DNA of 64,000 bases from Candidatus Pelagisphaera phototrophica (GTDB taxonomy: Bacteria > Verrucomicrobiota > Verrucomicrobiia > Opitutales > Opitutaceae). Where the stretch lies: positions 1,178,001-1,242,000 of the forward strand of contig NZ_CP076039.1 of the NCBI RefSeq assembly GCF_014529625.1. The letters are read 5' to 3'. The translations under genes were made by a program, and so were the position numbers. Below the pieces are notes generated by a model. The model was not told the DNA's origin. It did no database searches and saw nothing but the letters and a program-made list of their open reading frames with translations. Below, one piece after another: positions 42,952 to 63,468 of the stretch (the stretch's first letter is position 1; every line of letters starts with the position of its first letter).

Positions 42952-42960
42952 ATTTGAGAA

Positions 42961-43077: not shown

Positions 43078-43158
43078 TGAGTCCTGTTCTTGTTTTGGAG
43101 CGGATTCACCTTTCTTCGCTCAACACCGGATCTCAAACCGCAAATATTGAGATCCTAA

Positions 43159-45282: not shown

Positions 45283-45594
45283 CTTCCCTGTTGCTACGTT
45301 TGAACGAGTATTAGGTCTCCTTGCAAGGTGCCCTTTTGTATGGCTGTGCTCGGAAATTGACCTATCGTCTGACCGCAAAATAGGACCACAGGATTCTCGG
45401 GGAATAGGCCACTTCATCCATAGTCTGAGGAGAGGGGGCAGCCCGCCCGCCGCTCTTCGAGTAATTGAGGGCATCCTTCGCGACCGTTCGTTTTAAGAGC
45501 GGTACGAATAGCTCTTACACCAAAATGCGATTACAGAGAGTTATTGCTGGCGGCCACCATAGCGATTGAGCCGTTGCCTACATCGAGCAGGATT
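45283..45594. other. Gene-free stretch after the receptor
   Basis: About 310 bases with no supported gene on either strand; the frames are shadows of the receptor. It ends at the first copy of the module-boundary repeat, and base composition changes beyond it. Confidence 0.45.
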
Positions 45595-45683
45595 GTTGAT
45601 AGGAAATTCAATTGAACGAGAGTTACCTTCCAAGGGCCGCTTCACTGTCCGACGATCACCCTGTTCTCTCCCGCGAGCCCCTT
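45595..45683 (+). repeat. Boundary repeat copy a (long form)
   Basis: Starts with the core GTTGATAGGAAATTCAATTG and continues GAACGAGAGTTACCTTCCAA for about 88 bases in total, ending CCCGCGAGCCCC. A second copy at 48972-49060 is the same except for a few substitutions. The two lie in direct orientation and enclose a GC-rich block of three genes. Shorter relatives occur at five more places to 61.3 kb. Confidence 0.85.
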
Positions 45684-45873
45684 AACCATCCCGCCTTCGA
45701 TAGCTCCCACCAAGGTGGCCTATCCCGTCAATTGATCGACTGTATGGAGATTACGTCAGCATTGATCGCTCGGCCGCGTTGACCCCACACTCCCCGCGCA
45801 CCGGCGCTTGACCCAAACCAAGGTGCATCGATTCGGGGGCGGGGTGATAGGCCGCCAATCTGTTGGTGAAAGT

Positions 45874-46926
45874 CTAACCGATGAGAAATAAAACTAGCGC
45901 GCCACCGACGAGCGCGCCGAATTGCGTTCGAGGATTTAAACGGCGAAAGGGAATCTCTACCGCGAGGTAGGTCACTGTACCCAGAAACACGCTTAAAATC
46001 AGGGCACCCCCGGCGACCACCGGGCGCAGCGGATCCCCGAACGTGAAGCGCGCGTAAACGAGCAGTGGCCAGTGCCACAGGTAGAGTGGGTAACTGATCG
46101 CGCCGATGGCCGGGAGCACCGATCCACCCAAGATTTGGCGACCCACGCGCGAGTCATCACCGAGCCAAATCAGAATCATCGTGCCCAGGATCACCGCGAC
46201 CGCGCCCAGGTTCGGGTGATTTTGATCCTCGATGGTGATCACCACCGAGGCCACGATCAAGGCCAGACCCATCACTCCCGTGACGTCCCGTGCGCGGCGT
46301 GGGGGTGCGGGCATCCAGACCACCAAACTGCCCGCTAGTATTTCCCAGAACCGCACGAGCGGATTATAAAACAACGTCGGCGAATGAGCGCGCCAAAGAT
46401 AGATGTTCAACGCCACCGAGACGATCGTCACCGCCACCGTGAACTAGCGCGCCCGGATGCGCGCGCACCACAGCAGCAGCGGAAACACGAGGTAAAATTG
46501 CTCCTCGACCGCCAAGGACCACAAGTGAAGGAGTGGCTTTAAGTTTGAGGACCCGTCGAAATATCCGCGCTCCCCCATGAGCGTCAGGTTCGACGCGAAA
46601 CGAAGGGCGCTCAAGAGGTGTTTACCTAGGGTGCGTCTCTCCGGTGCAAACAGAAAAAATATGGCCGCGGCCGCGGTGGCGAAGAGGACCGTGAATAGCG
46701 CCGGCAACAGCCGCCCCTCCCGCCGCAGGTAAAATCGAGTGATTGAAAATGCGTCGCGCTCGAAGTCGAGCACCAAGCTGCGGGTGATGAGGTATCCCGA
46801 GATAACGAAGAAGACGTCCACCCCGATGAAGCCGCGCGGCAGCACCGCCGGGAAGCAATGAAAAACGAGCACAAGCAGGATGGCGATCGCGTGCAACCCG
46901 TCGATGTCGCGACGCCGGCTCGCCAC
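45874..46926 (-). pseudogene. Acyltransferase-3 (OafA/YrhL type) interrupted by an amber codon
   Basis: A GTG start gives RRRDIDGLHAIAILLVLVFH and GFIGVDVFFVISGYLITRSL, then WSLAVEEQFYLVFPLLLW. This is the classic O-acetyltransferase membrane domain with its catalytic histidine. A TAG stop at codon 161 (46446-46444) interrupts it, and the same frame continues through LFYNPLVRFWEILAGSLVVW and further spans to 45874. The total length of about 350 codons fits an OafA membrane domain without the SGNH tail. Unless the stop is suppressed or a sequencing error, the gene is dead. Intended role: acetylating a surface polysaccharide. Confidence 0.8.
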
Positions 46927-46930
46927 CGTC

Positions 46931-47989
46931 CTACCTGTCTTCGATCGCCAGCAGTTTTTTGGCCACGCTACGTAAATAGGGCTCGACCCATTTGATCAGG
47001 CGACGCGCACCCGACGGCAACGCCGAGACGCCCGGATGCCGACGATCGGCGTGAAACATCAAACAACACTCCGGTGGGGTGGCCTTGCTGATGGCTTGCC
47101 GGTACTGTTCGTTGCGCGTGAACGGCACCCACGGGGGGTTCAACGCTTTCAACACGGTTTCGTTGTGGGCTTGATTGCCGGTGAAGTAGAGGTATAGATT
47201 TTCGGTTTGCGGTTTGGGTCGCGGCGTAATCCCCGCCGCGGTCAGGCGCTCGTCCATGTCGACGAACTGGATCTTGCGGTGCATCTCGAGGTGACGCCAG
47301 GCCTGGTAAGCAATCCAGTCGAACCCGAAGCCGCGAAACTTTTGGGTGGCGCGCAGGATTTGCCGGTCATCACCCTCCCCGCCGAGGAAGGCCATGAAGC
47401 CTTCAAAATCTTCGCGCTCGAAGCAACACAAGTTGTCGTACCAGCCGTACGCGCGTGCAAACACGTCCTGATTATCGTAGGTGCGAAACACCGTCCGCAG
47501 CGAATCGTGCAGCACTTTGGTGGTCCACGGTCCCCGGTACGCCGCCACGCTGAAGCGGTGCTCACCTCGATTGACCTCGGCCGCGAGCGAGTCACTCAGA
47601 CTCGCGGTACGAAACTGAATCACCTCGCTGTCCAGGATGACCACGTGATCAAGTCCCAGTTTGAATACACGCGCGAGGCCTAAGAATTTTTTGAAGGTGA
47701 TGAAACCGATGATGCCGTAGGCGAAGCCTGAATCCACGTCGCTCGTGAAGCCCGGCGCGGTCAACGCCGCCAATTCACGGTGGAGCGAGACCACGGTGAC
47801 CTTCGTCCGCACGTCCTCGGGCAACGTTTGGCAAAACGCCTCGAGTTCGATGCGCTCGGATTCGTCACTGGTGGTGAAGTGTATATCTGGAATCGCGGCC
47901 TCGGTCCGGTGCTGGACCACGCTGCACAGAAACTCAATGTTGTGCTTGAGGTGGGGCCGGTACGTCGGGATCGAAATGGCGATGCGCAT
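46931..47989 (-). CDS. Putative glycosyltransferase of unassigned family
   Basis: A 352-residue protein that begins like a GT-A glycosyltransferase (MRIAISIPTYRPHLKHNIEF) but then diverges. A possible DxD-like site is LDHVVILDSEV near residue 120. Other stretches include SVAAYRGPWTTKVLHDSL, AYGWYDNLCCFERED and YLYFTGNQAHNETVLKALNP. I cannot assign a family. It ends 4 bases after the acyltransferase start, so the two are one transcription unit. GC is high, in common with the block. Likely role: adding or handling a sugar in surface glycan synthesis. Confidence 0.6.
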   Translation of the reverse strand: MRIAISIPTYRPHLKHNIEFLCSVVQHRTEAAIPDIHFTTSDESERIELEAFCQTLPEDVRTKVTVVSLHRELAALTAPGFTSDVDSGFAYGIIGFITFKKFLGLARVFKLGLDHVVILDSEVIQFRTASLSDSLAAEVNRGEHRFSVAAYRGPWTTKVLHDSLRTVFRTYDNQDVFARAYGWYDNLCCFEREDFEGFMAFLGGEGDDRQILRATQKFRGFGFDWIAYQAWRHLEMHRKIQFVDMDERLTAAGITPRPKPQTENLYLYFTGNQAHNETVLKALNPPWVPFTRNEQYRQAISKATPPECCLMFHADRRHPGVSALPSGARRLIKWVEPYLRSVAKKLLAIEDR

Positions 47990-48071
47990 GAGACGCCTAA
48001 TAAAGCTGGTGATGGCCAGGAATCAAGACCGTTATTTGACTCACTGAGTAAACCTTTCTAACAATCTATAC

Positions 48072-48992
48072 ATGAAGGTTATCGACATCAGCGAAGCCGC
48101 GCGCGGACCTACCTTTTCGGTCGAGATTATTCCGCCCGCCCGCGGCCGCAGCGTGCGCTAACTCATCGACGTGGTCGAGGGCTTAGCGCCGGTCGATCCG
48201 AAGTGGATCGACGTGACCTCGCACTGCTCGACGCTGCAGGTGGAAGAGGGTGAGGACGGCACGGTTCGCCGGGCGGTGTTTAAAAAATGTCCCGGCACCA
48301 TCGGCATCTGCGGCATCATCCAGAATCGATTCAAGATCGACACCGTGGCCCACATGCTGTCCGACGGCTTCACGCGCGAAGAGACCGAAGACGCGCTGAT
48401 CGAGCTCAATTTCCTCGGCGTCGAAAATATCTTGGCGTTGCGCGGCGATGGGTCCAATTACGAAAAACCCCCTCTCAATGGACGCTCAACCAACGCGTTC
48501 GCGGTCGATCTGGTCAAACAGGCCGCCGAATTGCGCCGCGGTGAATTTATCGAATCGATGAGCAAATGCGCCTCGCTCGATTTCTGCGTGGGCGTGGCGG
48601 GCTACCCCGAAAAACACTTCGAAGCCGCCAATCTCGATCTCGACGTGCGCCGCCTCAAGGAAAAGGTCGACGCCGGCGCGGCCTACGTGGTGACCCAGAT
48701 GTTTTTCGACAATCAGAAATTTTACGCCTTCGTGGCCCGCTGCCGCACCGCCGGGATCACCGTGCCCATCATCCCCGGCCTCAAGATCCTACGTTCGGTG
48801 AATCAATTGAAATCGGTGCCACGCGCGTTTTACGTCGAGCTGCCGAGCGCACTCACCGACGAAATTCACGAAAGCCCCGAGCACGTGGTCGAGATCGCCC
48901 AGCGTTGGGCCGAGACTCAGACCAAGGATCTTCTCAATAACGGCTATCACAACGTTCACTTTTACGTGATGGTTGATAGGAAATTCAATTGA
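48072..48992 (+). pseudogene. metF: Methylenetetrahydrofolate reductase with nonsense codon and repeat-derived end
   Basis: ATG 48072 gives FSVEIIPPARGRS, the catalytic first strand, but codon 30 (48159-48161) is TAA. The same frame goes on with KWIDVTSHCSTLQVEEG, VENILALRGDGSNYEKP, AGAAYVVTQMFFDNQKF and IPIIPGLKILRSVNQLK, all typical of MetF. The last genuine residues are NVHFYVM. The frame then runs into boundary repeat b and stops after VDRKFN, losing the final helix. An internal start cannot restore the catalytic strand. Two lesions make it nonfunctional unless the stop is an artefact. Confidence 0.85.
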
Positions 48993-49060
48993 ACGAGAGT
49001 TACCTTCCAAGGACCGTGTCACGGTCCGACGATCACTCTGTTCTTTCCCGCGAGCCCCTT
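48972..49060 (+). repeat. Boundary repeat copy b (long form)
   Basis: Nearly identical to copy a over about 88 bases, in the same orientation. It contains a perfect palindrome: GGACCGTG (49011-49018), one base, CACGGTCC (49020-49027). A T-run follows its end at 49058. It cuts off the 3' end of the metF reading frame and separates the GC-rich block from the AT-rich GT10 gene. Confidence 0.85.
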
Positions 49061-49065
49061 TTTTT
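49011..49065. terminator. Palindrome and T-run at the end of repeat b
   Basis: An 8-base-pair stem at 49011-49027 lies in repeat b. A CCCC-T tract follows about 27 bases further on (49054-49064). The distance is long for a classical terminator. In copy a the stem is eroded. Confidence 0.3.
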
Positions 49066-49197
49066 ATTTTTTCGGGCTAAGAAAGAAATTGAATACCTTT
49101 TCCACGCACCAACTTCAACTGGCGTTCGACATTTCATTTAATTGATGAATCTATAAGATATTGGTAGACAGACTAGCACTCTGGTTTTAATCCCTAT

Positions 49198-50112
49198 TTA
49201 ATTACCATTTTCTATCTCATTAATTTTATTATTTATTATTTCCCATATATTATATTTTTCTAATATTAATCTCCTAGCTTTACGTAATGCTTCTATCTCC
49301 ATTTCAGTTAGTGGTTTATTAATGATATCGTTAATATCAAGTAATGGGTCTTCGCTCTCAATATCAATCAATCTAAAACTATTCTTTGGAAAGTAGTCGG
49401 ATATATTGGGGCATCCCCAATATATCGGCATACACCATGACAAATACGCATCTGCTAATTTTTCAGTCCAGTAATTTTTCTGTTTTGAGTTTTCCAAGAC
49501 AATTGAAAATTCATAATCAACCAAACCCTTAAACTTACAAAAACTATCATAATTTAACTCTCCTTTATAAGCGTCACCGTAGTAATTTCTATCATGGCCT
49601 CTACCGTACAAATCTATATCTGGTTCAGTTTCAAATAACCTCTTAATGTAATTATTCCTATGATTGTGTTTTGTTGATGCCACACAGCTGATTTTTTTAC
49701 TTTTGTTCGGATATTCTAAGTTTAACAAATAATCATAAGCCTTATTCAAACGATGCATGGAACCCGTATGAGTTGAATTGAAATCTATTATATTTTTATA
49801 TGGAGAACTATAATTTAACAAACAATCATAAGCTTTGTTTAACCAATGCTTGACACTGTTTTTATTTGGACAATGATGTACCCTTTGCTTATGTCTTATG
49901 TAATAAGGTTCTAACCTAATGAATATTGTTTTTTCAATTGGTGTATTTGTTTTATTTATTTCTAACGCTATAAAATAGTCAGCTTCCTTTGGGTTGATTG
50001 TTCCAATTAAATCTTTCCACACTCCATCATTATTTGGCGTGTTAATAGACAAACGATTTAGTAACGATTCATCGCTTGCACCCCACCCATTTAAAAAGAA
50101 AATCTTCTTCAT
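49198..50112 (-). CDS. GT10-family fucosyltransferase-like glycosyltransferase
   Basis: A 304-residue protein with the GT10 donor-binding signature: YEFSIVLENSKQKNYWTEK followed by ADAYLSWCMPIYWG and YFPKNSFRLIDIE. The family transfers L-fucose from GDP-fucose to glycans such as LPS O-antigens. Residues 91-131 contain a tandem duplication: LNKAYDCLLN at 91-100 and LNKAYDYLLN at 122-131, a 31-residue period. Very AT-rich codon use (about 30 percent GC) contrasts with the block on its right-hand neighbour at 45.7-49 kb and marks separate acquisition. It stands alone between repeats b and c. Confidence 0.88.
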   Translation of the reverse strand: MKKIFFLNGWGASDESLLNRLSINTPNNDGVWKDLIGTINPKEADYFIALEINKTNTPIEKTIFIRLEPYYIRHKQRVHHCPNKNSVKHWLNKAYDCLLNYSSPYKNIIDFNSTHTGSMHRLNKAYDYLLNLEYPNKSKKISCVASTKHNHRNNYIKRLFETEPDIDLYGRGHDRNYYGDAYKGELNYDSFCKFKGLVDYEFSIVLENSKQKNYWTEKLADAYLSWCMPIYWGCPNISDYFPKNSFRLIDIESEDPLLDINDIINKPLTEMEIEALRKARRLILEKYNIWEIINNKINEIENGN

Positions 50113-50329
50113 TATAATTAATATTTATAAATTTCGCACCTTCAGCATATATCTTACCAAAAATTCAGTAGTTTCATCGTCATAATCTCTGGAGCTTTTG
50201 TGCTATGTATCAATATAGAATTCATAGTTAAAATTAGGAAAAGGTTTTTTAAAAAAAAGTCAATAACTTTAATTTTATATGATCTAAAAAGATTGTCTAA
50301 AATTGGAATAAAATTTATATCAAAAAATA

Positions 50330-50352
50330 GTTGATGGGGAATTCAATTGTTC
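50330..50352 (+). repeat. Boundary repeat copy c (core)
   Basis: GTTGATGGGGAATTCAATTG plus TTC matches the core with two changes in the GATAGG part. It lies 31 bases before the split tRNA-Ser gene. Confidence 0.7.
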
Positions 50353-50383
50353 AAAGAGTCCCTTTGATCCCAGCTTTTCTGAA

Positions 50384-50460
50384 GGAGAAGTGCCAGAGTT
50401 GTCCAATGGGACTGACTCGAAAACAGTAGTTTACGGGTTCGAATCCCATTACCGGCTCCA
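50384..50460 (+). tRNA. Chimeric tRNA: tRNA-Ser(CGA) 5' half joined to a foreign 3' half
   Basis: Positions 50384-50420 give a serine tRNA 5' half: acceptor GGAGAAG, a three-pair D stem (CCA with TGG) and the start of the anticodon arm ACTGACTCGA. The rest supplies a T arm and CCA end (GGGTTCGAATCCC, ACCGGCTCCA). This 3' half has a short variable loop, and its acceptor does not pair with GGAGAAG. The proper partner CTTCTCC is found at 51984. The 3' half resembles a class I tRNA such as tRNA-Thr. As it stands it should not fold as a functional tRNA. Confidence 0.65.
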
Positions 50461-50769
50461 ATCAAGAAACTAAATAAAAGCTGTATATGGCGGGATTGAC
50501 GATTTCTATTCTATCCCATTCCAAATAATTCGGTTCGGCTTAAAATACATGGTTTATAGGGTAACATTAGGGAGTCGACGTTCATGAGCCCTGAGCTAAA
50601 ATCCACAATATTGCTTAACGGGAACTAGCAATTAAACGTTCTTGCGGGCCCCTCAGCGACGGGTTCAAGAACACCTTTAGAGTTCGATTCTATGTAGAAG
50701 GCATCTGTTTACGCTAAGAGGCAATTGGTGCAAGTAAACAAGTATGGAGCTCCAGTACTCGGTTGACAA
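50461..50769. other. Gene-free stretch of the tRNA insertion
   Basis: No supported coding frame. It is the left part of the 1.5-kb segment that splits tRNA-Ser. Confidence 0.4.
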
Positions 50770-51540
50770 CTGCGGCGGCAGTAGACGCCAGAACGGCTCT
50801 TAAAATGCTTGGAAAAACCAAGCTTGGCGAGGGTAATGAGCGTGCGTTAAAAGTGGCAATGAAGCATTAATTGGAACATCTCGAACGGGAGGCACAGTCT
50901 CACTCTTTCGAGGAAGTCTATCAGCTCTCAATCGAGTCCAGAAAAGGTAGAAGAGGTTAGTGGACCAACCACGAACAAGAAAGGACAGCTTCTATGGGCG
51001 ACCCTCTGCCTCGTACGCCTGCTTCCGGTAATCAGCGGATCAATGAGAGGGGATTTCTCAATTACTTTGGGTCAAGTGGAATCGATGCTATATCTTAAGG
51101 CCAGATACTGAACTTCCTGTATCAGCACTACAGCTAAAATGCGTCCAACTTCAATCGGGCGTTGTAGACCATAAAGCCTGTGTTCAAGCATGCTCATGAC
51201 AGGGGTTGGTTACAGCATGATCCGACTAGTGGTATTTATCTCAAAGATAATTAGAAGGCGACGGAGGTTTTTAGGATCGATGAATTTAATCGAGTGGTTC
51301 AACTTATCCAGACCGGTGAATTCAGGGATCTGGGGCTGGCGTAACTTTCCTTATGTTCGCCGGACTGAGGCCATCTGAATTGATGGGGAATAGGGACAAG
51401 AAGCCTCTCGACTGGAATAAGATTATTCTAAGGCCCAAGGGCGCCCACACGAAGCCGTACATCGATGAGCCTCCTGAAAGCGATAAGCTCAAGGAGGGGA
51501 GCTCAGTGGATAGGGAGCCGAACCTCATCTAGTTACCGCC
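50770..51540 (+). pseudogene. Decayed tyrosine recombinase (phage/island integrase)
   Basis: Between the tRNA halves, broken frames give integrase-like pieces in the right order. One frame (about 50770-51100, two stops) contains LEREAQSHSFEEVYQLSIES and WTNHEQERTASMG, resembling the arm and core-binding region. Another frame (about 51345-51530) reads TFLMFAGLRPSELMGNRD and LDWNKIILRPKGAHTKP, the catalytic core with the first active-site arginine in GLRPSE. The His-x-x-Arg and tyrosine boxes are not recognisable. The element is dead. Confidence 0.6.
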
Positions 51541-51817
51541 GCCTGGACTGGCTTCGTCCAAGACGTAGAAACGCTCAGCTAAAGCAACAGGCAGCAGCGA
51601 GCAAACTACCAGGGGAATGCGAACAAAGGAGTGGATGTTACAATCTTCGAGAAAGCGTTCCTCGGTATCAATGAACAGGGGTAATCTTTATGTCAGTCGG
51701 ACCAAGTGAAAAGCGGGTCCATGAGGCCTTTTTTTGGCGATGAATGCATAACGATACTTCCTGCAACCGTGCCCCCCTGATGGGTAGTTTGAAAACTTGT
51801 AATTAACACGATTTAGA

Positions 51818-51840
51818 TCCCTCAAGGCGGTCTTGAGGGA
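51818..51840. repeat. Perfect nine-base-pair hairpin
   Basis: TCCCTCAAG (51818-51826) and CTTGAGGGA (51832-51840) form a stem with loop GCGGT. No T-run follows. It lies between the integrase relic and the tRNA-Ser 3' half and may be a terminator or a protein-binding arm of the inserted element. Confidence 0.5.
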
Positions 51841-51933
51841 GTTAAAATATTCTATCTCCTCTGAAGTGGCTACAGAATTTACTTAACTTACTAAAAAGCA
51901 GTACGATATGATATTGTAGGATAAAGATACAAA

Positions 51934-51996
51934 ACTGACTCGACATCAGTTGTAGGGGCAGCTCTATCTGGGGTTCGATTCCCTCCTTCTCCGCCA
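51934..51996 (+). tRNA. 3' half of tRNA-Ser(CGA)
   Basis: Starts with ACTGACTCGA, the same ten bases that end the 5' half at 50411-50420. It then completes the anticodon stem (TCAGT), a long class II variable arm (TAGGGGCAGCTCTA), a T loop (GGGTTCGATTCCC) and the acceptor CTTCTCC with GCCA. The acceptor pairs perfectly with GGAGAAG at 50384. Joined at the shared ten bases, the two halves make a normal serine tRNA with anticodon CGA. Position 37 is C instead of the usual A, consistent with decay. Confidence 0.75.
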
Positions 51997-52038
51997 TTTC
52001 ATAATTTATTCTAGATCGAAAGAGCGGAATCAACCTTT

Positions 52039-52087
52039 AGTTTCCCCTCTCAATCAAATCTGAACAATTGAATTTCCTATCAATAAC
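52039..52087 (-). repeat. Boundary repeat copy d (inverted)
   Basis: On the minus strand it reads ATTGATAGGAAATTCAATTG then TTCAGATTTGATTGAGAGGG. It shares about 60 bases with copy e at 55545, including the GATTTG, AGAGGGG and AGGTTGAT blocks. It is the only inverted copy and, with e, brackets the epimerase and ABC exporter. Confidence 0.8.
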
Positions 52088-52097
52088 GCATATTCTT

Positions 52098-52322
52098 ATG
52101 AAGAAGCTCCATATCAGACAATATGAATGGAGCGCTGTAACAATAGGAAAAATTAGTGAGAATTCATTCACAGAGAAGGATTCTGATGAATTTTATAATA
52201 ATATTTTAACAGATGATGAAACTTGTTACAGAATAGGTATTATTGACTTTAGGTCTCTCTGTGAAGCAGATGCTCATGAAGAGAGACGTCAGTGGTATAC
52301 CTGGAATATTCTTGGCAATTAA
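52098..52322 (+). CDS. Small acidic protein of unknown function
   Basis: A 74-residue product from ATG 52098, ending 6 bases before the epimerase start, so it is probably co-translated with it. It is acidic and rich in aromatic residues (HIRQYEWSAVTIGKI, SEADAHEERRQWYTWN-like ending). I recognise no domain. An earlier in-frame start at 52068 lies inside boundary repeat d and is rejected. AT-rich like the epimerase. Confidence 0.5.
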   Translation: MKKLHIRQYEWSAVTIGKISENSFTEKDSDEFYNNILTDDETCYRIGIIDFRSLCEADAHEERRQWYTWNILGN

Positions 52323-52328
52323 AATTTT

Positions 52329-53219
52329 ATGAAATCGTTAGTAACGGGTGGTGCGGGATTTATCGGTTCTAACTTGGTAGAGACTCTACTGGGTGTCGGA
52401 CATACTGTTATATGTGTCGATAATGAAAGTTCTAATGTACAAGATAAACCCTACTGGAATAACGATTCAATTAATATCCGCGGAGACATCAGAGATCACA
52501 CTCTGATTTCTTCTGCCATGAAAGATGTTGATTATGTTTTTCACTTGGCAGCAGAAGCACGTATTCAACCTGCAATTGAGAATCCTATTAACGCAGTTAG
52601 TGTTAATGATCTTGGAACTACAACGGTTCTTCAGTGTGCAATAGAGCATCAGGTGAAAAAGTTTATTTTTTCTTCCACGTCTGCTGTATATGGAAGAAAT
52701 AAATCTCCCAATGTTGAAACTCAATCTCCAGATCCTCTCAATCCATATTCAGTAACTAAACTGAATGGTGAAAATCTCTGTAAGATGTACACGGAATTGT
52801 TTGGTCTTCCCACAATCATCTTTAGATATTTCAATGTTTATGGTCCTAGACAACCTGTGAGGGGTCATTATGCACCTGTTCTTGGCATTTTTGAGCGACA
52901 GAAGGGTGCTGGTGAACCTCTAACTATTGTTGGTGATGGTAATCAAAGGCGTGACTTTGTTCATGTTGAGGACGTCGCTCGCGCTAATGTAATGGCAGCT
53001 CTCGCAGATCTAGGACAAGATGCTTATGGTGAAGTGTACAACATTGGCTCAGGGCAGAGCTTCTCTGTAAATGAAATTGCAGAAATGTTTATACATGAGA
53101 AGACTTATATCGCTCCTAGACTTGGTGAGGCAAGAGTCAGTCTTGCTAATAATCAGAAGATGAGAAAAACTTTTGCGTGGACACCCGCTCACGATCTTGA
53201 GAAATGGGTGCGTGGGTAA
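52329..53219 (+). CDS. NAD-dependent sugar-nucleotide epimerase/dehydratase
   Basis: A 296-residue extended SDR of the UDP-glucose 4-epimerase type. It has VTGGAGFIGSN for NAD binding, FHLAAEARIQPAIENP, the active-site pair in NPYSVTKLNGE and FRYFNVYGPRQ. It is shorter than the usual 310-330 residues at the C-terminus. It acts in the cytoplasm on a nucleotide sugar to provide a surface-glycan precursor. It forms a unit with the small gene before it. The ABC exporter starts 129 bases later. Confidence 0.88.
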   Translation: MKSLVTGGAGFIGSNLVETLLGVGHTVICVDNESSNVQDKPYWNNDSINIRGDIRDHTLISSAMKDVDYVFHLAAEARIQPAIENPINAVSVNDLGTTTVLQCAIEHQVKKFIFSSTSAVYGRNKSPNVETQSPDPLNPYSVTKLNGENLCKMYTELFGLPTIIFRYFNVYGPRQPVRGHYAPVLGIFERQKGAGEPLTIVGDGNQRRDFVHVEDVARANVMAALADLGQDAYGEVYNIGSGQSFSVNEIAEMFIHEKTYIAPRLGEARVSLANNQKMRKTFAWTPAHDLEKWVRG

Positions 53220-53348
53220 CTATGATTCAAATCTTTACCTCCGTAGTTAAATGAAACCCCGTGCAGTTGCTGATGATTTGAACTAAAACTCAGGTTCTAA
53301 CAATAATCGAACTTCCTCAATCCACTGGAAAAAACAGTCATTTATAGT

Positions 53349-55124
53349 ATGAAGGCCGAAAAAACCTCTCCTCCCAAGTTCAGTGTTCTGGGCATTTTTA
53401 AGCGCGTTTGGTTGCTTATGACGCTGCGTGAGCAACGACGTGCAGGATTCGTTTTCTTCGGTATATTCATCAATAGTTTTGCGGAAATCTTGGGGTTAGC
53501 AGCGGTCGTGCCGGTGATTGGACTGGTCATTGATCCGGGTCTCATTCACGAAAATGACCACTTAGCCCGTGCGTTTGAAATAACCAGCAGTATCGGAATT
53601 GATACCGAGCGCAAATTCCTGATGTTCGCTTCGATCGGATTGGTCGCGGCGTTTTTATCCAAGGCCTTTCTCAATCTCGGACTGAATCTCATTCAAACAC
53701 GCTTCTCCTATGCCATCGGCCATCGAATCTCCGGGACGATGTGGAAGTATCACTTCTCCCAAAGTTTGGAACGCATGCGATCCACCGAATCAGGAAAGGT
53801 ACTTACAGAAATCGGTTCCTGGCCCTTAGGGCTCGCCAATACATACATCGTTGGGAGCATGCGCCTTCTCAATGAGCTCATCGTGATTTTCCTGATTGCG
53901 GTGGGACTGTTCGCCTACAATCCCATCGTTTTATTCAGTGTCTCTTGCCTCGTTGCAATCGGGGCAATCATCATTCGTAAATTCACGAAGCGACGACTTG
54001 AAAGGTACAGTGAAATCCGCAGAGCCCTCGAGCCACAAACGGGCACATTAATCAATAGTGCAGTGCGTGGATTCTTGGATGTCATGAGTTTTCGAGCTTC
54101 TAACGCCATAAGATCCGATTATTTAAGAAAAACTAAAATAATTTATCGAATTGCGGGCAATTCACAAATCATGGCCGCAGCACCGGCCAAACTTTATGAG
54201 GTTCTGGCTGTGACGGGCTTAAGTGGGGCCATCTTGATCAGCCTCTTGCTGTTGGAACGCAATGAGGCATTTCTGAATCTCCTGATTCTGATGGCGTTGA
54301 GCGCTTACCGCGTAATGCCTTCTATGTCCCGAATGAATGGACAAATCATGTCTATGAGAGGGTCGATGTTTATACTTAACACCATCGAAAAAGCCTTGCA
54401 AGAATGGGAATTAATTAAGGACCTGCATCAGGAAACTCAGTCACCCGTTTGGAAATCCGCTGTGATCCGCTTGAACGATGTCACCATAGGGTATGAGAAT
54501 TTATCCCAACCTGTGATCGCAAATCTCACCCATGACTTTCAACCGGGTCAAATCCATGCCATTGTCGGACCTTCGGGATCTGGCAAAAGCACCTTGGTAA
54601 ATACCATTCTCGGTCTCCATTCGTTTTCTGCTGGATCGATTTCTGTGGGAGAAACAACGGATTCGACTCAGACCCTGGGCGGTGAAATTAAAATCAAAGA
54701 TTGGCTCTCTCAAATCGGATACCTCAGCCAACAGCCGTTCCTATTCAATGGAAGCGTCCGAGATGTTTTGACCATGCGTGTACAAACGGATCGCATCAAC
54801 GAGGAACGAGTTCAACAATTGATCAATGTATTGGAATTGAACGATTGCCTCGGTGAAAATCCACTCGATTTCGAATTGCTTGAAAGCGGGAATAACTTGA
54901 GTGGCGGACAACAACAACGTTTGGCAATTCTCAGAGCCCTGCGCATTGACCGACCTGTATTGTTGCTAGATGAAGCCACAAGTGCCTTGGATGAGGCCAA
55001 GCGCGACGCCGTTTTTGGCTTGCTACGGGAGCGCGCCGCTATCGGAGTCAATGTGTTACTTATAACCCACGACATGAGTATCGCAGTGCAATGTGATACC
55101 ATTTTAAATTTGAGTGAAGGGTAG
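53349..55124 (+). CDS. ABC exporter, lipid-linked glycan flippase-like
   Basis: A 591-residue half transporter: six spans (about 25-330) fused to a nucleotide-binding domain. It has Walker A GPSGSGKST near 407, signature LSGGQQQR near 517, Walker B VLLLDEATSALDE near 537 and the H-loop LLITHDMS. This is the MsbA/PglK layout that flips lipid-linked oligosaccharides across the inner membrane. As last gene of the cassette between repeats d and e it would export the product of the local glycan enzymes. Confidence 0.9.
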   Translation: MKAEKTSPPKFSVLGIFKRVWLLMTLREQRRAGFVFFGIFINSFAEILGLAAVVPVIGLVIDPGLIHENDHLARAFEITSSIGIDTERKFLMFASIGLVAAFLSKAFLNLGLNLIQTRFSYAIGHRISGTMWKYHFSQSLERMRSTESGKVLTEIGSWPLGLANTYIVGSMRLLNELIVIFLIAVGLFAYNPIVLFSVSCLVAIGAIIIRKFTKRRLERYSEIRRALEPQTGTLINSAVRGFLDVMSFRASNAIRSDYLRKTKIIYRIAGNSQIMAAAPAKLYEVLAVTGLSGAILISLLLLERNEAFLNLLILMALSAYRVMPSMSRMNGQIMSMRGSMFILNTIEKALQEWELIKDLHQETQSPVWKSAVIRLNDVTIGYENLSQPVIANLTHDFQPGQIHAIVGPSGSGKSTLVNTILGLHSFSAGSISVGETTDSTQTLGGEIKIKDWLSQIGYLSQQPFLFNGSVRDVLTMRVQTDRINEERVQQLINVLELNDCLGENPLDFELLESGNNLSGGQQQRLAILRALRIDRPVLLLDEATSALDEAKRDAVFGLLRERAAIGVNVLLITHDMSIAVQCDTILNLSEG

Positions 55125-55544
55125 CTGCCATGCCGAATACACTTGATGTTGACAGTCGTTGAAAGGAAATAAGTGCCATCTTTGTTACTGTGATTTCGAT
55201 TTCACTTTAACCAAAAGACAGTCAGTACCTTGTGGGTCTTCCTAATAAGCGTTGCAATTCGGCTTTCCCATTGAACTGTAAGGTATTCGGACTATCCAGA
55301 GGTGTTCTTGGCTTAAATAACCCTTCAGTCTTAGATCTACCATAGGTTACGTTTAGCTAACGCATTCCTTATGAGATCCTGACGCTAACATCTTCTCGTT
55401 TCTAGCAATTCCAAGTGATTGAAGCATCAAACCTAACCGTTACGCACAGATCGGCGGTGCCGTTGGACCCGCGCGGTTGTGGCTACATGAATAAAACGAA
55501 AGAAACACCCCGAAAGGTTACCCCAAAAGTTTAAGACCTTGGTT
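55125..55544. other. Gene-free stretch after the ABC exporter
   Basis: No supported gene or remnant is seen in these 420 bases. They end at boundary repeat e. Confidence 0.45.
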
Positions 55545-55640
55545 GTTGATAGGAAATTCAATTGTTCCGATTTGGTTCAGAGGGGAGGATTAAGGTTGAT
55601 ATCGGGCGATCATGTTAGAAAGTCCGTGGATTGGTGTGGA
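55545..55640 (+). repeat. Boundary repeat copy e (extended form)
   Basis: Core GTTGATAGGAAATTCAATTG followed by TTCCGATTTGGTTCAGAGGG and then GTTAGAAAGTCCGTGGATT. The distal part, GTTAGAAA-TCCGTGGATT, recurs in copy g at 61284-61302. With d it shares the GATTTG and AGAGGGG blocks in inverted orientation. Confidence 0.82.
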
Positions 55641-55675
55641 TTAAAAGGCTCTATTGGTACTATTGGTCGATTTCA

Positions 55676-55846
55676 ATGGATACGTTGGACACCGCTCTTG
55701 CCGCCTTGGAAAACATAAGAATATCCAGCCGCACCATCGGAATCATCCCTCACGTCGATGCCCTCAAGCAACTAATCAACGCTCAATGCGGGTCGAAAAA
55801 GGCAGTAACGGATACGGAACGCTCCCCTTCGTCACTGGTGCGTTAA
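55676..55846 (+). pseudogene. sbcC: C-terminal fragment of exonuclease SbcC
   Basis: Right after repeat e, one frame reads MDTLDTALAALENIRISSRT and then IGIIPHVDALKQLINAQ. This is the D-loop and signalling region of SbcC/Rad50 ATPases (LDxALxALE, GIISHV in intact proteins). A frameshift near 55790 moves the expected RVEKGSNGYGTL into the next frame. The rest of the gene is absent. Only a chopped tail remains at the repeat. Confidence 0.65.
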
Positions 55847-55904
55847 CAGTCGTTGAGGTCCAAGTATTCGGAGACATTTTTTCAGACATAACACGAATAC
55901 CAAC

Positions 55905-57698
55905 TCATTGCTCCGCCCGCATCGCGTTCCACAACATCATCCCACAGATAAATCTATGCCCTCCACTTGCTTTGATACCAGTCGTCACGGATGGTTTTGG
56001 CAGATAGGTATCAAGTTCAGCGGAATCAAAAAACTGATGCAGTGATTCGCGATGTGGCTCGGCGTATTCGCGCACCTTTCGCCAAGCCGGTTGGTCTAAA
56101 TTCATGGCTCTATGAAACCGATGATACTCGTCCCGACGCGAACCCCTAATCTTTGCGCGCAGACTAAGATATTTCCGCTGCAAAGTCGCCGTAATATTCG
56201 GAGTGATCGGTTCCGGAGAATGCGAAAAAGCGGCCAATGGAATTCGGGCCAATTCAGGCGCAATCCGCTGCAAAGTCAGCCTCTGCAATTTCCGGTTTAT
56301 GAAATGTCTATCCGCTATACTGCGGATCGACTCCGCCATGGGTAAATCTACGCTCGGCAGCACAGGCCACGTGTAAAACGATTGCTTCCATGCGTGGGTT
56401 CCTAAGTGCGGACGGGCGCGAAAATGCATGAGCATCTTCCAGGTTCGGTCGAATCCTGTGCCCTCAAATGCATCCCATTCCTCGCGTATTTCACCCATCG
56501 CCACTTCTAGTGCATCACGCATGCTTGAGTTTACACACATTCGCCGCAGTGTTTGTGGATCGATTCCAGCTTGGTTGATCCATTTCTTAAGAGCGAAATC
56601 GAAATTATTCAAATTACGGCCTACGCGAAACGAGCCGGCCGGACTGTAATGATTATCCAGAACCAGCCCACCCAAGGAGCGTTTCCCGAGTCGTCGACTT
56701 AGGGCAGCCCCGGCGTTCAGGCTGACAGTACTGAAACCGCCTCCCAGCCAGTGCAGCCGCAACTCGTTTCTGATACCCTCTTCGAGCGCTTCCACGGAAT
56801 CCTCTTGGTAACACCATTCCAGTCCCAATCGCTTGGCGACCGAAGACGCGAACATTGATTCGTAGTCGGACTTGATGCCCCCCGTCCCACATAGCGGCCG
56901 GATCCCCGCCTCGTGTGCAAGAGCCAGCATGTGACGCGAATCCAGCCCTCCGGAGAGTAGGGCGTGATCCGGTGGCCGCTGCACATGACGCTCCACAGCC
57001 CGGCGAGTCGCCTCGATGGATTGCAAGATTGCCTTCTCCTCGGGTTGAGTCTTCTTACCTGCCCGAGGACCGGGCAGGCGATGCTTATTCAGGTCAAAGC
57101 GTTTGTTTTGTGAGTCATATCTAATCGAGCAAGCCGTTGCTAACCGTCGCCCGGAGTGCTCCAAGGTCCGCGTGCCGGTCGATCCGTTTTGGATCGCATA
57201 ACGGAGTATCCCAACTGGATCGACATCCGAGCAGTATTCCGGATGCTGCCGGAGAGCGGTCAGGCTCGTAGCGATTCCAAACGCCTCGCCTTCTTGGAAA
57301 TAATAAAGCGGAAAAAATCCGAACGAATCGACCCCGGCGATCAGGCAGCCATCACGGGAAAGAAAGATCCACGCAAACAGGCCGCTGTATCTGGACAACG
57401 CCTCTTCACCCTCCGTTGTGGCTTGCCCGGCGATCAGTCGATGCACCTCAGCAGCGGTTAGATACGAGTCATTGTCATAGGCAATCGCATCGCCCCAAAG
57501 CAATACCGTCCCGGCTTCCCCATCGTAGTGCTCGAACGGTGCCACCTCTCCATGATGCCAGGCAATCTTGCCAGCTGGGCCGGAGCACTCGCCTTGGATC
57601 TCACGAAAACCCTCTGGCGCCAATCGCTCGATAGCGGCGGACATTTCAGGGACAACGCGATCGTTTCCCTGAGTCGCAAAAAAAACAAATCCGGCCAT
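55905..57698 (-). CDS. Asparagine-synthetase-like amidotransferase lacking the glutaminase cysteine
   Basis: A 597-residue protein with AsnB architecture. The N-terminal Ntn domain begins MAGFVFFATQ, where true glutaminases have cysteine as residue 2, so it should not use glutamine by the usual route. The C-terminal domain has the PP-loop LSGGLDSR at about 248-255 and CGTGGIKSDYESMFASSVAK. Such homologues make amides, lactams or activated acyl adenylates in surface-glycan and natural-product loci. It lies upstream of the SAM methyltransferase on the same strand by 38 bases, so the pair is probably one unit. GC is higher than on either side. Confidence 0.86.
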   Translation of the reverse strand: MAGFVFFATQGNDRVVPEMSAAIERLAPEGFREIQGECSGPAGKIAWHHGEVAPFEHYDGEAGTVLLWGDAIAYDNDSYLTAAEVHRLIAGQATTEGEEALSRYSGLFAWIFLSRDGCLIAGVDSFGFFPLYYFQEGEAFGIATSLTALRQHPEYCSDVDPVGILRYAIQNGSTGTRTLEHSGRRLATACSIRYDSQNKRFDLNKHRLPGPRAGKKTQPEEKAILQSIEATRRAVERHVQRPPDHALLSGGLDSRHMLALAHEAGIRPLCGTGGIKSDYESMFASSVAKRLGLEWCYQEDSVEALEEGIRNELRLHWLGGGFSTVSLNAGAALSRRLGKRSLGGLVLDNHYSPAGSFRVGRNLNNFDFALKKWINQAGIDPQTLRRMCVNSSMRDALEVAMGEIREEWDAFEGTGFDRTWKMLMHFRARPHLGTHAWKQSFYTWPVLPSVDLPMAESIRSIADRHFINRKLQRLTLQRIAPELARIPLAAFSHSPEPITPNITATLQRKYLSLRAKIRGSRRDEYHRFHRAMNLDQPAWRKVREYAEPHRESLHQFFDSAELDTYLPKPSVTTGIKASGGHRFICGMMLWNAMRAEQ

Positions 57699-57736
57699 AT
57701 TTCAGTGTAAGTGGAAGTTATGAAAGTGCTCGGAGG

Positions 57737-58489
57737 TCAGGGCTTCACCGCACGAATGAAGTTCAAAGCCCAATTGAGTTCACAAGACCCATCCAGCTCC
57801 TTGAAGCCAACAGTTTGCTCAATTGCCTGGAGTAGGTCTTCGTCACTGGGATTGCTATCCATGCAGAACAAGGTCCGGCAATACTCAAACATCTGGCTTC
57901 GATCTTCAAACTGCCAACCGTACGACTTGATTGCCGCAAATGTAACAGTGAATCCAATTGCTCCGAGCATCTCCAGCTGCTCCGCACGCAGATATTTCCC
58001 CTGATGTCCCATTGAATTGAAACGCCCGACCACTCCATCAAGAAATTCTGCCGTAGCGGAGCCCTCCTCCGCGTCCCCGATCGTCAACGCCCCACCGGAC
58101 CGCAACAGCCGAAACCATTCCTGGAAAACACCTACCTGATCATCAATGTGATGCATGCCGGCCAGACTTAAAATGGCATCGGCCGAACCATCCGGTAGCG
58201 GGATCGCCTCATGAGGCGCACAAATCACCTGGTGATCGCTCTCATGAGTTCCTGATTCTAAAAAGTTGGGCGCTGGATCGATCGAAACCAATTTCGCCCC
58301 CTCAGGCAGGTAGGCGGCCAGATATCCCCCACCCGAAGGCACATCCAAAATCAAAGGGCGGCCCTTCTCAATTCGAGCCGTTTCAACCAATGCCTCGAAT
58401 TCGCGTTTCCTAGCATCGGGCCACCGATCCATGGCTTCATGATACATAGCTCCTCGCCTGTCATAAATATCCGAATAGGACTTAAACAT
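57737..58489 (-). CDS. Class I SAM-dependent methyltransferase
   Basis: A 250-residue Rossmann methyltransferase. LILDVPSGGGYLAAYLP at about 46-62 is motif I, with PSGGG in place of the usual GCGTG type. VSIDPAPNFL follows as motif II, then DAILSLAGMHHIDDQ and FRLLRSGGALTIGD. Target unknown. It precedes the amidotransferase gene in transcription and probably modifies the same product. Confidence 0.85.
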   Translation of the reverse strand: MFKSYSDIYDRRGAMYHEAMDRWPDARKREFEALVETARIEKGRPLILDVPSGGGYLAAYLPEGAKLVSIDPAPNFLESGTHESDHQVICAPHEAIPLPDGSADAILSLAGMHHIDDQVGVFQEWFRLLRSGGALTIGDAEEGSATAEFLDGVVGRFNSMGHQGKYLRAEQLEMLGAIGFTVTFAAIKSYGWQFEDRSQMFEYCRTLFCMDSNPSDEDLLQAIEQTVGFKELDGSCELNWALNFIRAVKP

Positions 58490-58564
58490 ATGCTAAATAT
58501 CGGCGGGGTGGGGGGGATCTTTATACGGCTTTAATGGTAAACCTCAAAACGTAATGAGAATATA

Positions 58565-59305
58565 TGACAAAGAAGCTCGCGTTACTTGTCGCATAGAGAA
58601 CCTTGCCATCCGGATCGTAAGCCAAGCCCGAGACAATTGAGAAGCTCACGCCGAGAGCCCCCGGTCGTCGTTTTGATCGTAAGCAGCGAATCTGTCGTAC
58701 TGTCGATCCCGTAAAGAATTCCGGATTCTACATCGATGGCCAGCCCGCTGAGATCCGCCACATCGGTCGCTCCGTATGCGCCGCCTGCACCCGTTAGCGG
58801 GGAAATCCCCAGCAACTGACCCGAATTGGAATCCGCCCCAAAGAGTCCTTCCTCTGGCAGATTTTAAACCGGTGGTTCGGGCGGATCGGGAGCATCCGGC
58901 GGTGCGACCGGCTCACGGACCGCTACCACGAATGTCTGCTGCAGGATTTGCATCTCGGACGCCGAAAAAACTTCGAATAGTTCGGTCGCCTGGGTCATCC
59001 GGCGCACCGCCGCCTGCTCCCAGTTTACGAGGTCCACAGACACGCGAAGGTAAATCGGCTGCCCCACAGGCCCCGACATCTCCACCGTGAGCCCCCCTGA
59101 ACTAGAAACAACAGCTAGGGGCTGAGGTTCGACGACGGCTGAGATAAACGATTCGATGAATGCCAGGTTGCCCGCCTCCGCGACTCGAGCATCCCGCGAA
59201 AACTGTCCCCAGGTCCCGTTCACGGTATCATCCACGTCAGCATTTGGCGTCCCGCTAAAACGCGCCCCTCCGCTCACCGTCCCGGCAATGTCCCTGATGT
59301 AATGG
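58565..59305 (-). pseudogene. Decayed secreted protein fragment
   Basis: One minus-strand frame runs from about 59305 with IRDIAGTVSGGARFSGTP and DLVNWEQAAVRRMTQATE. It reaches a TAA at 58866, then goes on LPEEGLFGADSNSGQLLGIS and LAIDVESGILYGIDSTTDS. A frameshift near 58660 moves the end (YDPDGKVLYATSNAS) to another frame. The second part resembles repeats of secreted beta-propeller proteins. The family is not certain. Confidence 0.55.
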
Positions 59306-59306
59306 G

Positions 59307-59570
59307 AATCCAGTGATTAACTAGGTTGTAAAGGAGACGGGCGGACATAGAGCCTCGGACTTCAATATCTTCACCCTCGTGCATTGCACGCAGGACGGCA
59401 GCAACCACGAATGCATCTAGGCGATCTACTTTTATTCCGCTTGAAAACTGGTCCTCGACGGAAAACTGAAGATTATGGCGACCACCTCGCCATTCGATAA
59501 ATGCTCGGGCACTAACACCATTTTTATTGCCCTCGGTGTAGGGTACGATTTCGAGCGGGTGTATAATCAC
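59307..59570 (-). pseudogene. N-terminal fragment of a PP-loop protein homologue
   Basis: The stretch FSVEDQFSSGIKVDRLDAF and VLRAMHEGEDIEVRGSMSAR parallels TRHSNAFVTALLFLAMRHND and VEVEGVLSVKFFNGVNK of the intact gene at 59679. The similarity ends at about 59307, where the frame runs into unrelated sequence. It is a second, truncated copy beside the intact gene, from duplication or from loss of an older copy. Confidence 0.6.
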
Positions 59571-59678
59571 AGATAATAAGATGTTTTTTCAATTTTAAAA
59601 TAATTTAATGGTGACGACAACAGATCTCCGATATTATTTCCTCTATTCCGATAAACAGTAAGTATCACTGATATTTCC

Positions 59679-60914
59679 TTAAAACTTTAGAACTATTTTA
59701 CGCAACCTGATAGTCCACAATTTACACTGATTAAATGCTTTTTTAATTACACCCGAGGTTTTTTGAAAATACCTACCGATTTTTATCGGTGTACTTTTTG
59801 ACCGTTTTAAAGCTATACGTAAACACTCTGCTATATCATCTCTTTTGTGCCGAACCGCTTCTTCAAGCACTCCTTCAGCTAGAGAGCGCAAAAATTCGTC
59901 CGGCAAATCCCATTTTCTAATATCTGAAAAATTAAGTGTTTTAGGAAACATCTGATATTTGTTTAACTTATTCTTTAATTCTAAAAAAATCATAGTTCTC
60001 ATGCACTTAAAGCATTTTCCACAATTCTGCATATCGTCTGTTCGCCCTAAGCAAACATTTAATAGAGGATAAGTTGCTTCCCATCCAGATATAGCAAAAG
60101 TTTTCTCTGCGCGTGACGCTTCAAAACCATCATGGGCAAACTCTATATTTTCGGTAGAAAACAAATAATCAGTTTCAATATTAGTTCCTATCTTAAAGTT
60201 AAGCCATTGCCCTTGCTGAAAACTTGAGGGAATTAAAAACCTTGAAAAAAATTTCTCTAATAAAAGAACAGTAGAGATAGTAGCCGGTCCGTGCCCATAG
60301 AGCCAATCCCATTCACGGAGAAAGTCAAATACATTACTTTTCGCTGATGTTAAATTAATACCAAATTTTTCTAACTCAATTTCGTTCTTTTTAAAATATC
60401 TATCATATAATTCAGGTTTTTTCCAACTAAATGGTGGCCCAATAAGCGCAAATAATCCATGGCTAATTCTTGCTCTCGAATCAGGTTCTCGCTCTCCAAA
60501 ATGTCGATATAAAGTATAGAAAGAATCAACACCGCCAGAAAAACAACAACCAACCTCCTGAGGATGATTCTTTATTCTTTCGGTAGTCAACTTCTGCGGT
60601 ATTATCTCGGTCTCTCCAAACCAATGGGGCCACCATTTTATAAAAATATCCTTAGCTTTGTTGACCCCGTTAAAAAATTTAACAGATAAAACACCTTCAA
60701 CTTCAACCTTATCGTTGTGACGCATGGCAAGAAATAAAAGAGCTGTCACAAAGGCATTACTATGTCTTGTTATATAGCACTCATACTCAGCAGGAAATTC
60801 ATACCACAACTCTTGAGGATACTTTCTCCTATTATAAAGTTCCGACAAAACTATCTTAGCCGATATCCTGACCGATTCATTGATCCGTACAATTGTCGGT
60901 TCCTTAATAAGCAT
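59679..60914 (-). CDS. PP-loop ATP pyrophosphatase-like protein with cysteine cluster
   Basis: A 411-residue protein. SGGVDS at 126-131 is the PP-loop of QueC, ExsB and asparagine-synthetase-like enzymes that adenylate a substrate. NCGKCFKCMRTM near 296-306 supplies a CxxCxxC cluster that could bind zinc. The N-terminal 110 residues are a separate beta-rich domain with no family I can name. I do not know its reaction. The PP-loop and the nearby asparagine-synthetase-like gene suggest ATP-driven activation in glycan or peptide modification. It is AT-rich and lies just before repeat f. Confidence 0.7.
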   Translation of the reverse strand: MLIKEPTIVRINESVRISAKIVLSELYNRRKYPQELWYEFPAEYECYITRHSNAFVTALLFLAMRHNDKVEVEGVLSVKFFNGVNKAKDIFIKWWPHWFGETEIIPQKLTTERIKNHPQEVGCCFSGGVDSFYTLYRHFGEREPDSRARISHGLFALIGPPFSWKKPELYDRYFKKNEIELEKFGINLTSAKSNVFDFLREWDWLYGHGPATISTVLLLEKFFSRFLIPSSFQQGQWLNFKIGTNIETDYLFSTENIEFAHDGFEASRAEKTFAISGWEATYPLLNVCLGRTDDMQNCGKCFKCMRTMIFLELKNKLNKYQMFPKTLNFSDIRKWDLPDEFLRSLAEGVLEEAVRHKRDDIAECLRIALKRSKSTPIKIGRYFQKTSGVIKKAFNQCKLWTIRLRKIVLKF

Positions 60915-60967
60915 ACTAATACAAAATACGTGCCAAAGATAACGTCAAGTAAGAAAAAGCAGTTGAG

Positions 60968-60991
60968 GTTGATAGGAAGTTCAATTATTCC
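60968..60991 (+). repeat. Boundary repeat copy f (core)
   Basis: GTTGATAGGAAGTTCAATTA followed by TTCC, with two changes from the core. It is 54 bases upstream of the PP-loop gene start and has the same orientation as a, b, c and e. Confidence 0.72.
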
Positions 60992-61211
60992 TACTCTATT
61001 TAAAGGGTAGCTGGTTGATAAACTATAAAAAATGAATATTGTCATTTAATAAAACTATAGCAGAGTTTATTCTGTTTTAAAAGGTATTACGTTTAAAGCC
61101 AGCATGTAATTTTATTCCCGAGCCTTCTACACTATAAAGTTTATTTTAAAAATTGGTTAGGATTTATCAAAGACTTAGATTAATATTTTTATGTATGACG
61201 ATTTGCGTTTT

Positions 61212-61305
61212 CGTGATAAGAAATTCAATTGTTCCGGCTAGATAAGAAGGGGAGGTTGAAGGCTTGTTTTAGCCTTATCGAGTTAGAAAATCCGTGGATT
61301 ACTGG
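61212..61305 (+). repeat. Boundary repeat copy g (extended form)
   Basis: CGTGATAAGAAATTCAATTG with TTCCGGC, then AAGAAGGGGAGG and GTTAGAAAATCCGTGGATT. The last block matches copy e over 18 bases. It lies just downstream of the sulfotransferase gene. Confidence 0.78.
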
Positions 61306-61360
61306 GGCCGTAGGCCGATTCAAGAATTGGTAGCTGACCCTTATTCTAACCCGAAAATGC

Positions 61361-62230: not shown

Positions 62231-62265
62231 TGGCTATTAAAGTTACGTTAAAAGAATTAGCTTAT

Positions 62266-63444: not shown

Positions 63445-63468
63445 AAAGAGCCCCTTTAGAAGTTAGAT

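Follow-up and report, generated by a model that had tools for sequence, protein, structure and literature searches.

The element analysed here is a short repeat found in a 64-kb stretch of DNA from Candidatus Pelagisphaera phototrophica, hereafter the window, which spans positions 1178001-1242000 of a one-contig genome of 4,086,264 bases (4.09 Mb). An initial annotation had described seven copies of a 20-base core that delimit the cassettes of a glycan locus. All seven copies are present: with up to three mismatches allowed, the window contains seven core sites, against a mean of 0.01 in 100 shuffled windows. In window coordinates, copies a (45595..45753, core 45595-45614) and b (48972..49060, core 48972-48991) are on the forward strand and have a tail of family 2 (AACGAGAG...); copy c (50330..50352, core 50330-50349), also forward, has a tail of only about 3 nucleotides (nt). 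Copy d (52009..52084, core 52065-52084) is on the reverse strand, is about 76 nt long and has a tail of family 1, as does the forward copy e (55545..55679, core 55545-55564; about 135 nt). Copies f (60968..61018, core 60968-60987) and g (61212..61300, core 61212-61231) are forward and diverged; both flanks of copy f are also found in contig PCCK01000021, and in copy g a diverged core adjoins a family 1 tail. Six of the core starts are as first reported, whereas the inverted site placed at 52087 proved to be the edge of a longer arm, the core itself being at 52065-52084. The extended homologies were reproduced at 93 nt and 92% identity for a and b (88 bases had been given), 59 nt and 86% for d and e (about 60 had been given), and 49 nt and 78% for e and g. 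In addition, 159 nt of copy a are shared with position 1247918 of the same genome and with contig CALJGU010000176.

All seven copies are located in a variable island, of which positions 45397..64000 of the window are the left part (the whole comprises positions 1223397-1254895 of the genome, 31.5 kb). In the close relative G006, which lacks this island, the same flanks are 11 bases apart, and the right flank starts at the 3' end of tRNA-Leu(CAG). Thus, the glycan locus is a tRNA-linked island. No repeats are found at its ends, and the notion that the repeats form the bounds of the glycan island is therefore abandoned. Nor are the repeats restricted to glycan cassettes: the genes flanked by copies include those for a molybdopterin oxidoreductase, a metallo-beta-lactamase-fold protein and a conserved DUF7133 protein (ten proteins scanned, four of them without a match). 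The only link to glycan genes is their frequency in these islands.

Across the whole genome, a search allowing two mismatches finds 49 core sites (28 on the forward strand, 21 on the reverse); a reversed control pattern finds none. The sites fall into 12 groups, and with tandems counted once, 30 of the 43 gaps are no longer than 10 kb; random placement gives a mean of 4.4 such gaps and a maximum of 13 (10,000 trials). That is, the copies are clustered and not scattered at random over the chromosome. With at most one mismatch, the core is found in eight of the 57 genomes searched (the host included). All eight belong to the same genus, of which 11 genomes were covered, and a single genome has up to 60 copies. 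The host, G004 and G007 are rich in the repeat; G003, G009 and G010 have no core at this threshold. An exact scan of a genome collection returned 60 stretches, the majority from metagenome-assembled genomes of Verrucomicrobiota/Opitutales and the remainder from contigs labelled Planctomycetota, Porticoccaceae, Gamma- and Alphaproteobacteria. Three such contigs (NHEC01000068.1, PCCK01000021.1 and PBZS01000062.1, labelled Planctomycetes, Porticoccaceae and Gammaproteobacteria) share 92-99% identity with the host genome over kilobases and, judging from this similarity, are probably misbinned. Such similarity was seen for these three off-lineage contigs alone, so the confinement of the family to one genus is a statement of what has been found so far, and is not watertight. 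Viral contigs contained no exact core match, and no known RNA family was found at the repeats in five sources at the gathering threshold. A literature search on Verrucomicrobia interspersed repeats with gene cassettes, and on Opitutales repetitive elements in genomic islands, found no description, although the family may still be published.

In the host genome, the copies lie between genes. The observation that none lies inside an intact gene can be extended from the window to the genome, where none of the 49 sites has its midpoint inside an open reading frame (ORF) of at least 120 amino acids, with a 30-nt margin at each ORF end, even though 75% of the sequence in the fetched loci consists of such ORFs. 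At a few copies, the repeat runs into the final codons of an ORF. The initial annotation had also placed each copy at or close to a change of base composition. This change is clear at about 49.0, 50.3-52 and 55.5 kb of the window, and absent at 61 kb.

The anatomy of the repeat was derived from 154 distinct sites (out of 160) in 76 loci; as these were selected with at most two mismatches, part of the conservation of the core is due to this selection. At its left end the repeat begins sharply with GTTGATAGG, usually directly preceded by TT. Outside this edge, T is found in 77% of the sites at position -2 and in 64% at -1, with no strong preference beyond -2; TT precedes 89 of the 145 non-tandem copies, as compared with 514 of the 5559 GTTG sites of any kind in these loci (9.2%). 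The right end, by contrast, is not fixed. Relative to the commonest unit, the copies stop at all lengths between 20 and 43 nt except 37 and 38, 27 of the 154 run to the 44-nt limit of the test, and the longest have about 470-495 nt in common. Several tails follow the same first 20 bases, among them TTCCGATTTGATTCGG..., one that has TTCCGATGTCTGGCC..., and AACGAGAGTTACC.... Units in tandem, cut at 21, 40 or 43 nt, are found repeatedly behind differing left flanks. A pair of copies at locus L017 (7905-7938), with a common CAATTG, forms a perfect 34-bp palindrome with the edges TT and AA.

This anatomy bears on a suggestion that the repeat is a conserved flank duplicated with each insertion, such as the 3' end of metF. 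In the window, a broken metF (48072..48992, forward) is interrupted by an in-frame stop close to the 5' end, and its 3' end is replaced by copy b, which cuts the ORF; the core of copy b encodes the final residues VDRKFN* of this ORF, including the stop. The MTHFR match (PF02219), however, stops at residue 267 of 273, ahead of the repeat-encoded residues, which rules out an origin from the metF 3' end. Moreover, the same 20 nt follow some 150 mostly unrelated flanks, that is, the flanks differ at almost every copy, and we reject a duplicated flank as highly improbable.

Neighbouring copies at least 200 bp apart have the same orientation in 68 of 78 pairs, some of which are strain duplicates. 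Orientation is also related to replication. In the host genome, sampled stretches have a positive GC skew from 0.42 to 2.05 Mb, and a negative or near-zero skew elsewhere; the skew halves were assigned from stretches around the islands, owing to the weak local skew. Counting tandem units singly, the copies number 25+/4- in the plus-skew half and 3+/17- in the other (Fisher 8e-7), so that 42 of the 49 sites are oriented along the direction of replication. The majority orientation agrees in 10 of the 11 untied clusters (p 0.012), the exception being at 2768 kb. In the complete genome G008, the orientation agrees at all three loci of the plus-skew half, the fourth locus being near the skew switch. 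The 20 skew stretches that hold no copy were placed after the sites were known, and hence are no control.

The combination of one recognised end, a two-base target preference, free truncation, truncated tandems and orientation tied to replication leads us to propose a one-ended insertion linked to the replication fork. Specifically, the repeats would be a non-autonomous mobile element that was inserted by one end through a replication-linked step, and that later served as a recombination point; we assign this explanation a probability of about 0.48, i.e., slightly below one half. An enzyme acting in trans would join the sharp end, GTTGATAGG..., to the host DNA, usually directly 3' of TT. Copying or strand transfer would then enter the element for a variable length, so that the right end breaks off at any length between 20 and about 490 nt. 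The link of orientation to replication makes it probable that single-stranded DNA, or a 3' end at the fork, is used in this step. New copies landing at the edge of old ones would give rise to the tandem units, and co-oriented copies in fast-changing, tRNA-linked islands could become exchange points for blocks of genes, through the same enzyme or through RecA. Insertion of this kind is known from single-strand HUH transposition, rolling-circle transposition and target-primed reverse transcription. If the intermediate were RNA, the transcript would end in ...CAATTGAATTTCCTATCAAC.

A number of results weigh against this proposal, among them those on the enzyme. The host genome has no match to the reverse transcriptase domain RVT_1, to Y1_Tnp (PF01797) or to Y2_Tnp, which are present in 4, 8 and 2, respectively, of the 11 genus genomes; on this absence, a reverse transcriptase or a Y1 or Y2 transposase of the host is rejected as the mover. 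Across the genus, the copy number does not track any of these three families. PF00589 detected two intact genes and one match broken by a stop; the likes of the intact genes are found in 10 and 11 of the 11 genus genomes, and we read them as XerC and XerD. No intact integrase beyond these two was found by PF00589, no integron-integrase model having been run. Taken together, the searches for RVT_1, Y1_Tnp, Y2_Tnp and PF00589 yielded no mobilising enzyme, serine recombinases, TnpB and other transposases not being among the families searched. Either the enzyme was lost or is of another family, or its gene is in sequence that this genome (97.87% complete) lacks.

Other difficulties concern the DNA itself. 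The unit can form a hairpin, the stem columns of which are paired in 77-90% of 82 distinct units, and in the 43-nt fold the TTGA at the edge pairs with TCAA within the core. Yet the 82 units include a single compensatory cell, other changes being one-sided or pair-breaking; this lack of compensatory change, with many broken pairs, gives no support to an HUH enzyme that recognises structure. No target duplication was seen by eye at a few junctions. Outside the host genome, sites do occur inside ORFs, in 10 of 86 groups in other species and in 1 of 6 in G006. No clean pair of an empty and a filled site was found for a whole first insertion, the one case being a single tandem unit that may reflect a deletion, and the strain pairs described below mostly show flank exchange rather than insertion. 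Lastly, orientation matched the local skew at 26 of 49 contig loci from other species, i.e., there was no relation, and in the host islands the local skew is itself weak or reversed (+0.014, +0.014, -0.029). Local GC skew is an uninformative stand-in for the replichore in short contigs, and as the contig loci are thus uninformative, the replication-linked orientation rests on two genomes.

The repeat shares features with several known types of mobile DNA. Its copies resemble repetitive extragenic palindromes (REP) with their RAYT (TnpA-REP) transposases, and the insertion sequences (IS) of the IS200/IS605 family, in being short, intergenic and numerous, and in forming clusters and tandems. According to two papers, the orientation of IS200/IS605 elements follows the direction of replication (PMC5371812; PMC6006769), and there is a bias in several IS families (PMC5371812). 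The repeat's orientation likewise tracks replication, as in the counts above, with which G008 is consistent. Unlike these elements, however, it has no GT[AG]G foot on a conserved hairpin, its host has no Y1 transposase, and one of its ends is undefined. IS91 and ISCR, one-ended elements of the rolling-circle type, have one precise end next to a short target motif and a variable other end, and carry neighbouring genes along. The repeat matches them in the precise end beside a short target motif and in the variable other end, and differs in that its host has no Y2_Tnp. Retroposons of the long and short interspersed nuclear element type combine a fixed end and a short target preference with 5' truncation, template-jumping tandems and families that share an end. 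The repeat has a comparable fixed end with a short target preference, truncation at the opposite end, tandems and several families with the same end, but neither a reverse transcriptase in its host nor a target duplication visible by eye. It is non-autonomous, short and present in many copies, like miniature inverted-repeat transposable elements (MITEs), which had been put forward as an alternative. This comparison fits only in part: one of the two ends is undefined and variable, there is no regular pair of terminal inverted repeats, and 6 of the 78 neighbour pairs face inward.

The position of the copies relative to genes brings integrons to mind. The order is mostly gene-tail-core-gene. Of the sharp-side genes, 25 of 35 in the host genome and 39 of 53 in other species (64/88 together) have their start at the edge; of the tail-side genes, 22 of 29 and 39 of 62, respectively (61/91 together), have their end at the tail; G006, at 3/4 and 1/2, is excluded from the pooled counts. 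At 1850.9-1857.5 kb there is an array of nine sites, which fall into six groups and are all forward; the six intervening ORFs of at least 90 amino acids are all reverse. Such an arrangement would be expected of integron-like cassettes without attC, each a gene with a 3' tail and core, which some site-specific recombinase would excise and insert at the sharp end, a single orientation being kept. The tail does travel with the tail-side DNA in exchanged pairings, and gene blocks are permuted between PCCK01000021 and the host genome. Co-oriented sites between genes, the gene orientation and the variable middle part are also features of integrons and of clusters of attC sites lacking integron-integrases (CALIN). 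An attC site, however, is bounded by RYYYAAC and GTTRRRY, which pair in a hairpin. As the initial annotation had stated, the repeat is no attC: its edge is GTTGATA, and its folds do not pair an edge box with an inverted far-end box. No integron integrase was recognised either, apart from the two intact Xer-like genes and the broken match, although CALIN do not require one. The site rule fails and no such integrase was recognised, and thus we do not file the repeat as an integron. Many copies, furthermore, are isolated in intergenic sites, two of them also in G006, where they are changing, and in two pairs with the same flank the repeat is joined 3 and 5 nt apart. On balance, we consider integron-like cassettes rather unlikely.

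The repeats had also been interpreted as sites at which segments are swapped, and comparison with close strain contigs bears on this. These contigs are 92-99% identical to the host over alignable blocks (blocks of at least 250 bp). Five of eight internal block ends coincide with a repeat; the count leaves out contig ends and three rows of the host contig with dispersed transposase-like sequence (3108988 twice, 3109404), and would be five of ten with the PBTU block (399 bp, 87%), also left out, neither end of which is at a repeat edge. Of the three other block ends, one is a simple deletion, one a local similarity of 75 bp, and one the start of a transposase that, from its motif, we take to be IS3-like. 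Sequence of this IS3 type is dispersed, with examples at PBZS01000062.1 5918-6416, CALJGU010000176.1 2393-2891 and positions 3108988-3109420 of the host.

Nine host copies gave ten pairings with these contigs, in five of which both flanks are kept and in five of which one flank is exchanged. The sharp side is kept and the tail side is new at 1061832 and 1233545; the tail side is kept and the sharp side is new at 1049720, 1247918 and 1239212, although at 1239212 another 11 bases are shared. At 1242271, the strain contig continues without the repeat. The ten leave out the pair 1853922-1854140 and PCCK 6954-7173 (98% over 218 bp), in which the repeat alone is common and both flanks differ, and also the PCCK copy that is at a contig end. 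A host region at 303 kb is 94% identical to G006 over 13 kb; it has two tandem units to the one in G006, the difference being exactly one 43-bp unit with both flanks kept. A second copy nearby is present in both genomes, but two more of its core bases are changed in G006, so that the core is not strictly kept there. At the copies at 3970 and 2594 kb, the search for empty sites returned matches in relatives that do not span the copies. A role as swap sites thus has partial support. It gains from the clustered, intergenic and co-oriented copies, the block ends and the pairings. It loses from the island ends, which are not repeats, and from a stable intergenic stretch whose two repeat sites also exist in another species, with bases changed there.

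These comparisons could also be read as the work of RecA on passive repeats, that is, on old MITE- or REP-like remnants that lie in fast-evolving islands and on which nothing acts specifically. The breakpoints lie within core homology (20-44 nt and tail), both flanks are kept in half of the pairings, orthologous copies change bases, and three of the eight breakpoints are off the repeat. Passive repeats, however, leave unexplained the TT preference, the single sharp end, the prevailing co-orientation and the replication-linked orientation. They also leave unexplained the two same-genome pairs of copies with an identical sharp-side flank, at which the repeat is joined 3 and 5 nt apart; these offsets suggest independent joining and not recombination within the repeat, although slippage is possible for the 3-nt case. 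We therefore hold passive repeats to be a possible, if minority, explanation.

The one-ended, fork-linked insertion that we favour could be taken further. Reverse transcription or single-strand transfer at the fork, working from a single 20-nt end, might not only spread the repeat but also carry adjoining genes and build oriented arrays, with neither an integron integrase nor paired ends. We view such gene shuffling as speculative and doubtful. If an enzyme does act on a single end, this would be a way of building gene arrays unlike that of integrons and two-ended transposons. Surface-sugar islands differ between close relatives by means of exchange that are often unknown; here many of the points of exchange carry a repeat with one fixed end, and since this repeat is oriented along the direction of replication, the mechanism can be tested.

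The longest tails have coding potential of their own. Their reverse strand (L079:4803-5006, L085:5480-5683 and L117:1504-1707) encodes a conserved 68-amino-acid C-terminus, ...DPIPPDEEPVFYAD, with the consensus ...QWDQTPxYWSDTPLGQWAIEANRWDGVDPIPPDEEPVFYAD. It has no Pfam match, and the frame is interrupted by an internal stop codon in at least one copy (L086). No convincing parent gene was found in 61 family genomes, two of them of the genus, or in the fetched loci; for 9 of the 11 genus genomes the search covered the fetched loci alone, and a parent is possible there. A second short repeat, around GCCATCTTCACTCCG, sits inside copies of the first at L075, L071, L047 and L117; its 15-mer occurs five times in 396 kb of loci L035-L094, and not at all in 692 kb of the host genome.

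Pieces of tRNA genes recur near the copies. The array at 1850 kb directly follows tRNA-Lys and contains a second, partial tRNA-Lys end. At locus L015, an intact tRNA-Lys (8769-8844) is followed by an array, with a partial tRNA-Lys 3' end at 12346-12395, and in G006 several partial tRNA-Lys ends are found downstream of its tRNA-Lys. ARAGORN reports no tRNA in the window; by eye, there is a remnant resembling a tRNA 3' half at 50391..50460 (forward), and a second, resembling a tRNA 3' end, at 51950..51998 (forward), which adjoins copy d. Finally, positions 42956-43088 of the window contain a thiamine pyrophosphate (TPP) riboswitch, detected at the gathering threshold, upstream of an ORF that by eye encodes a TonB-type receptor.

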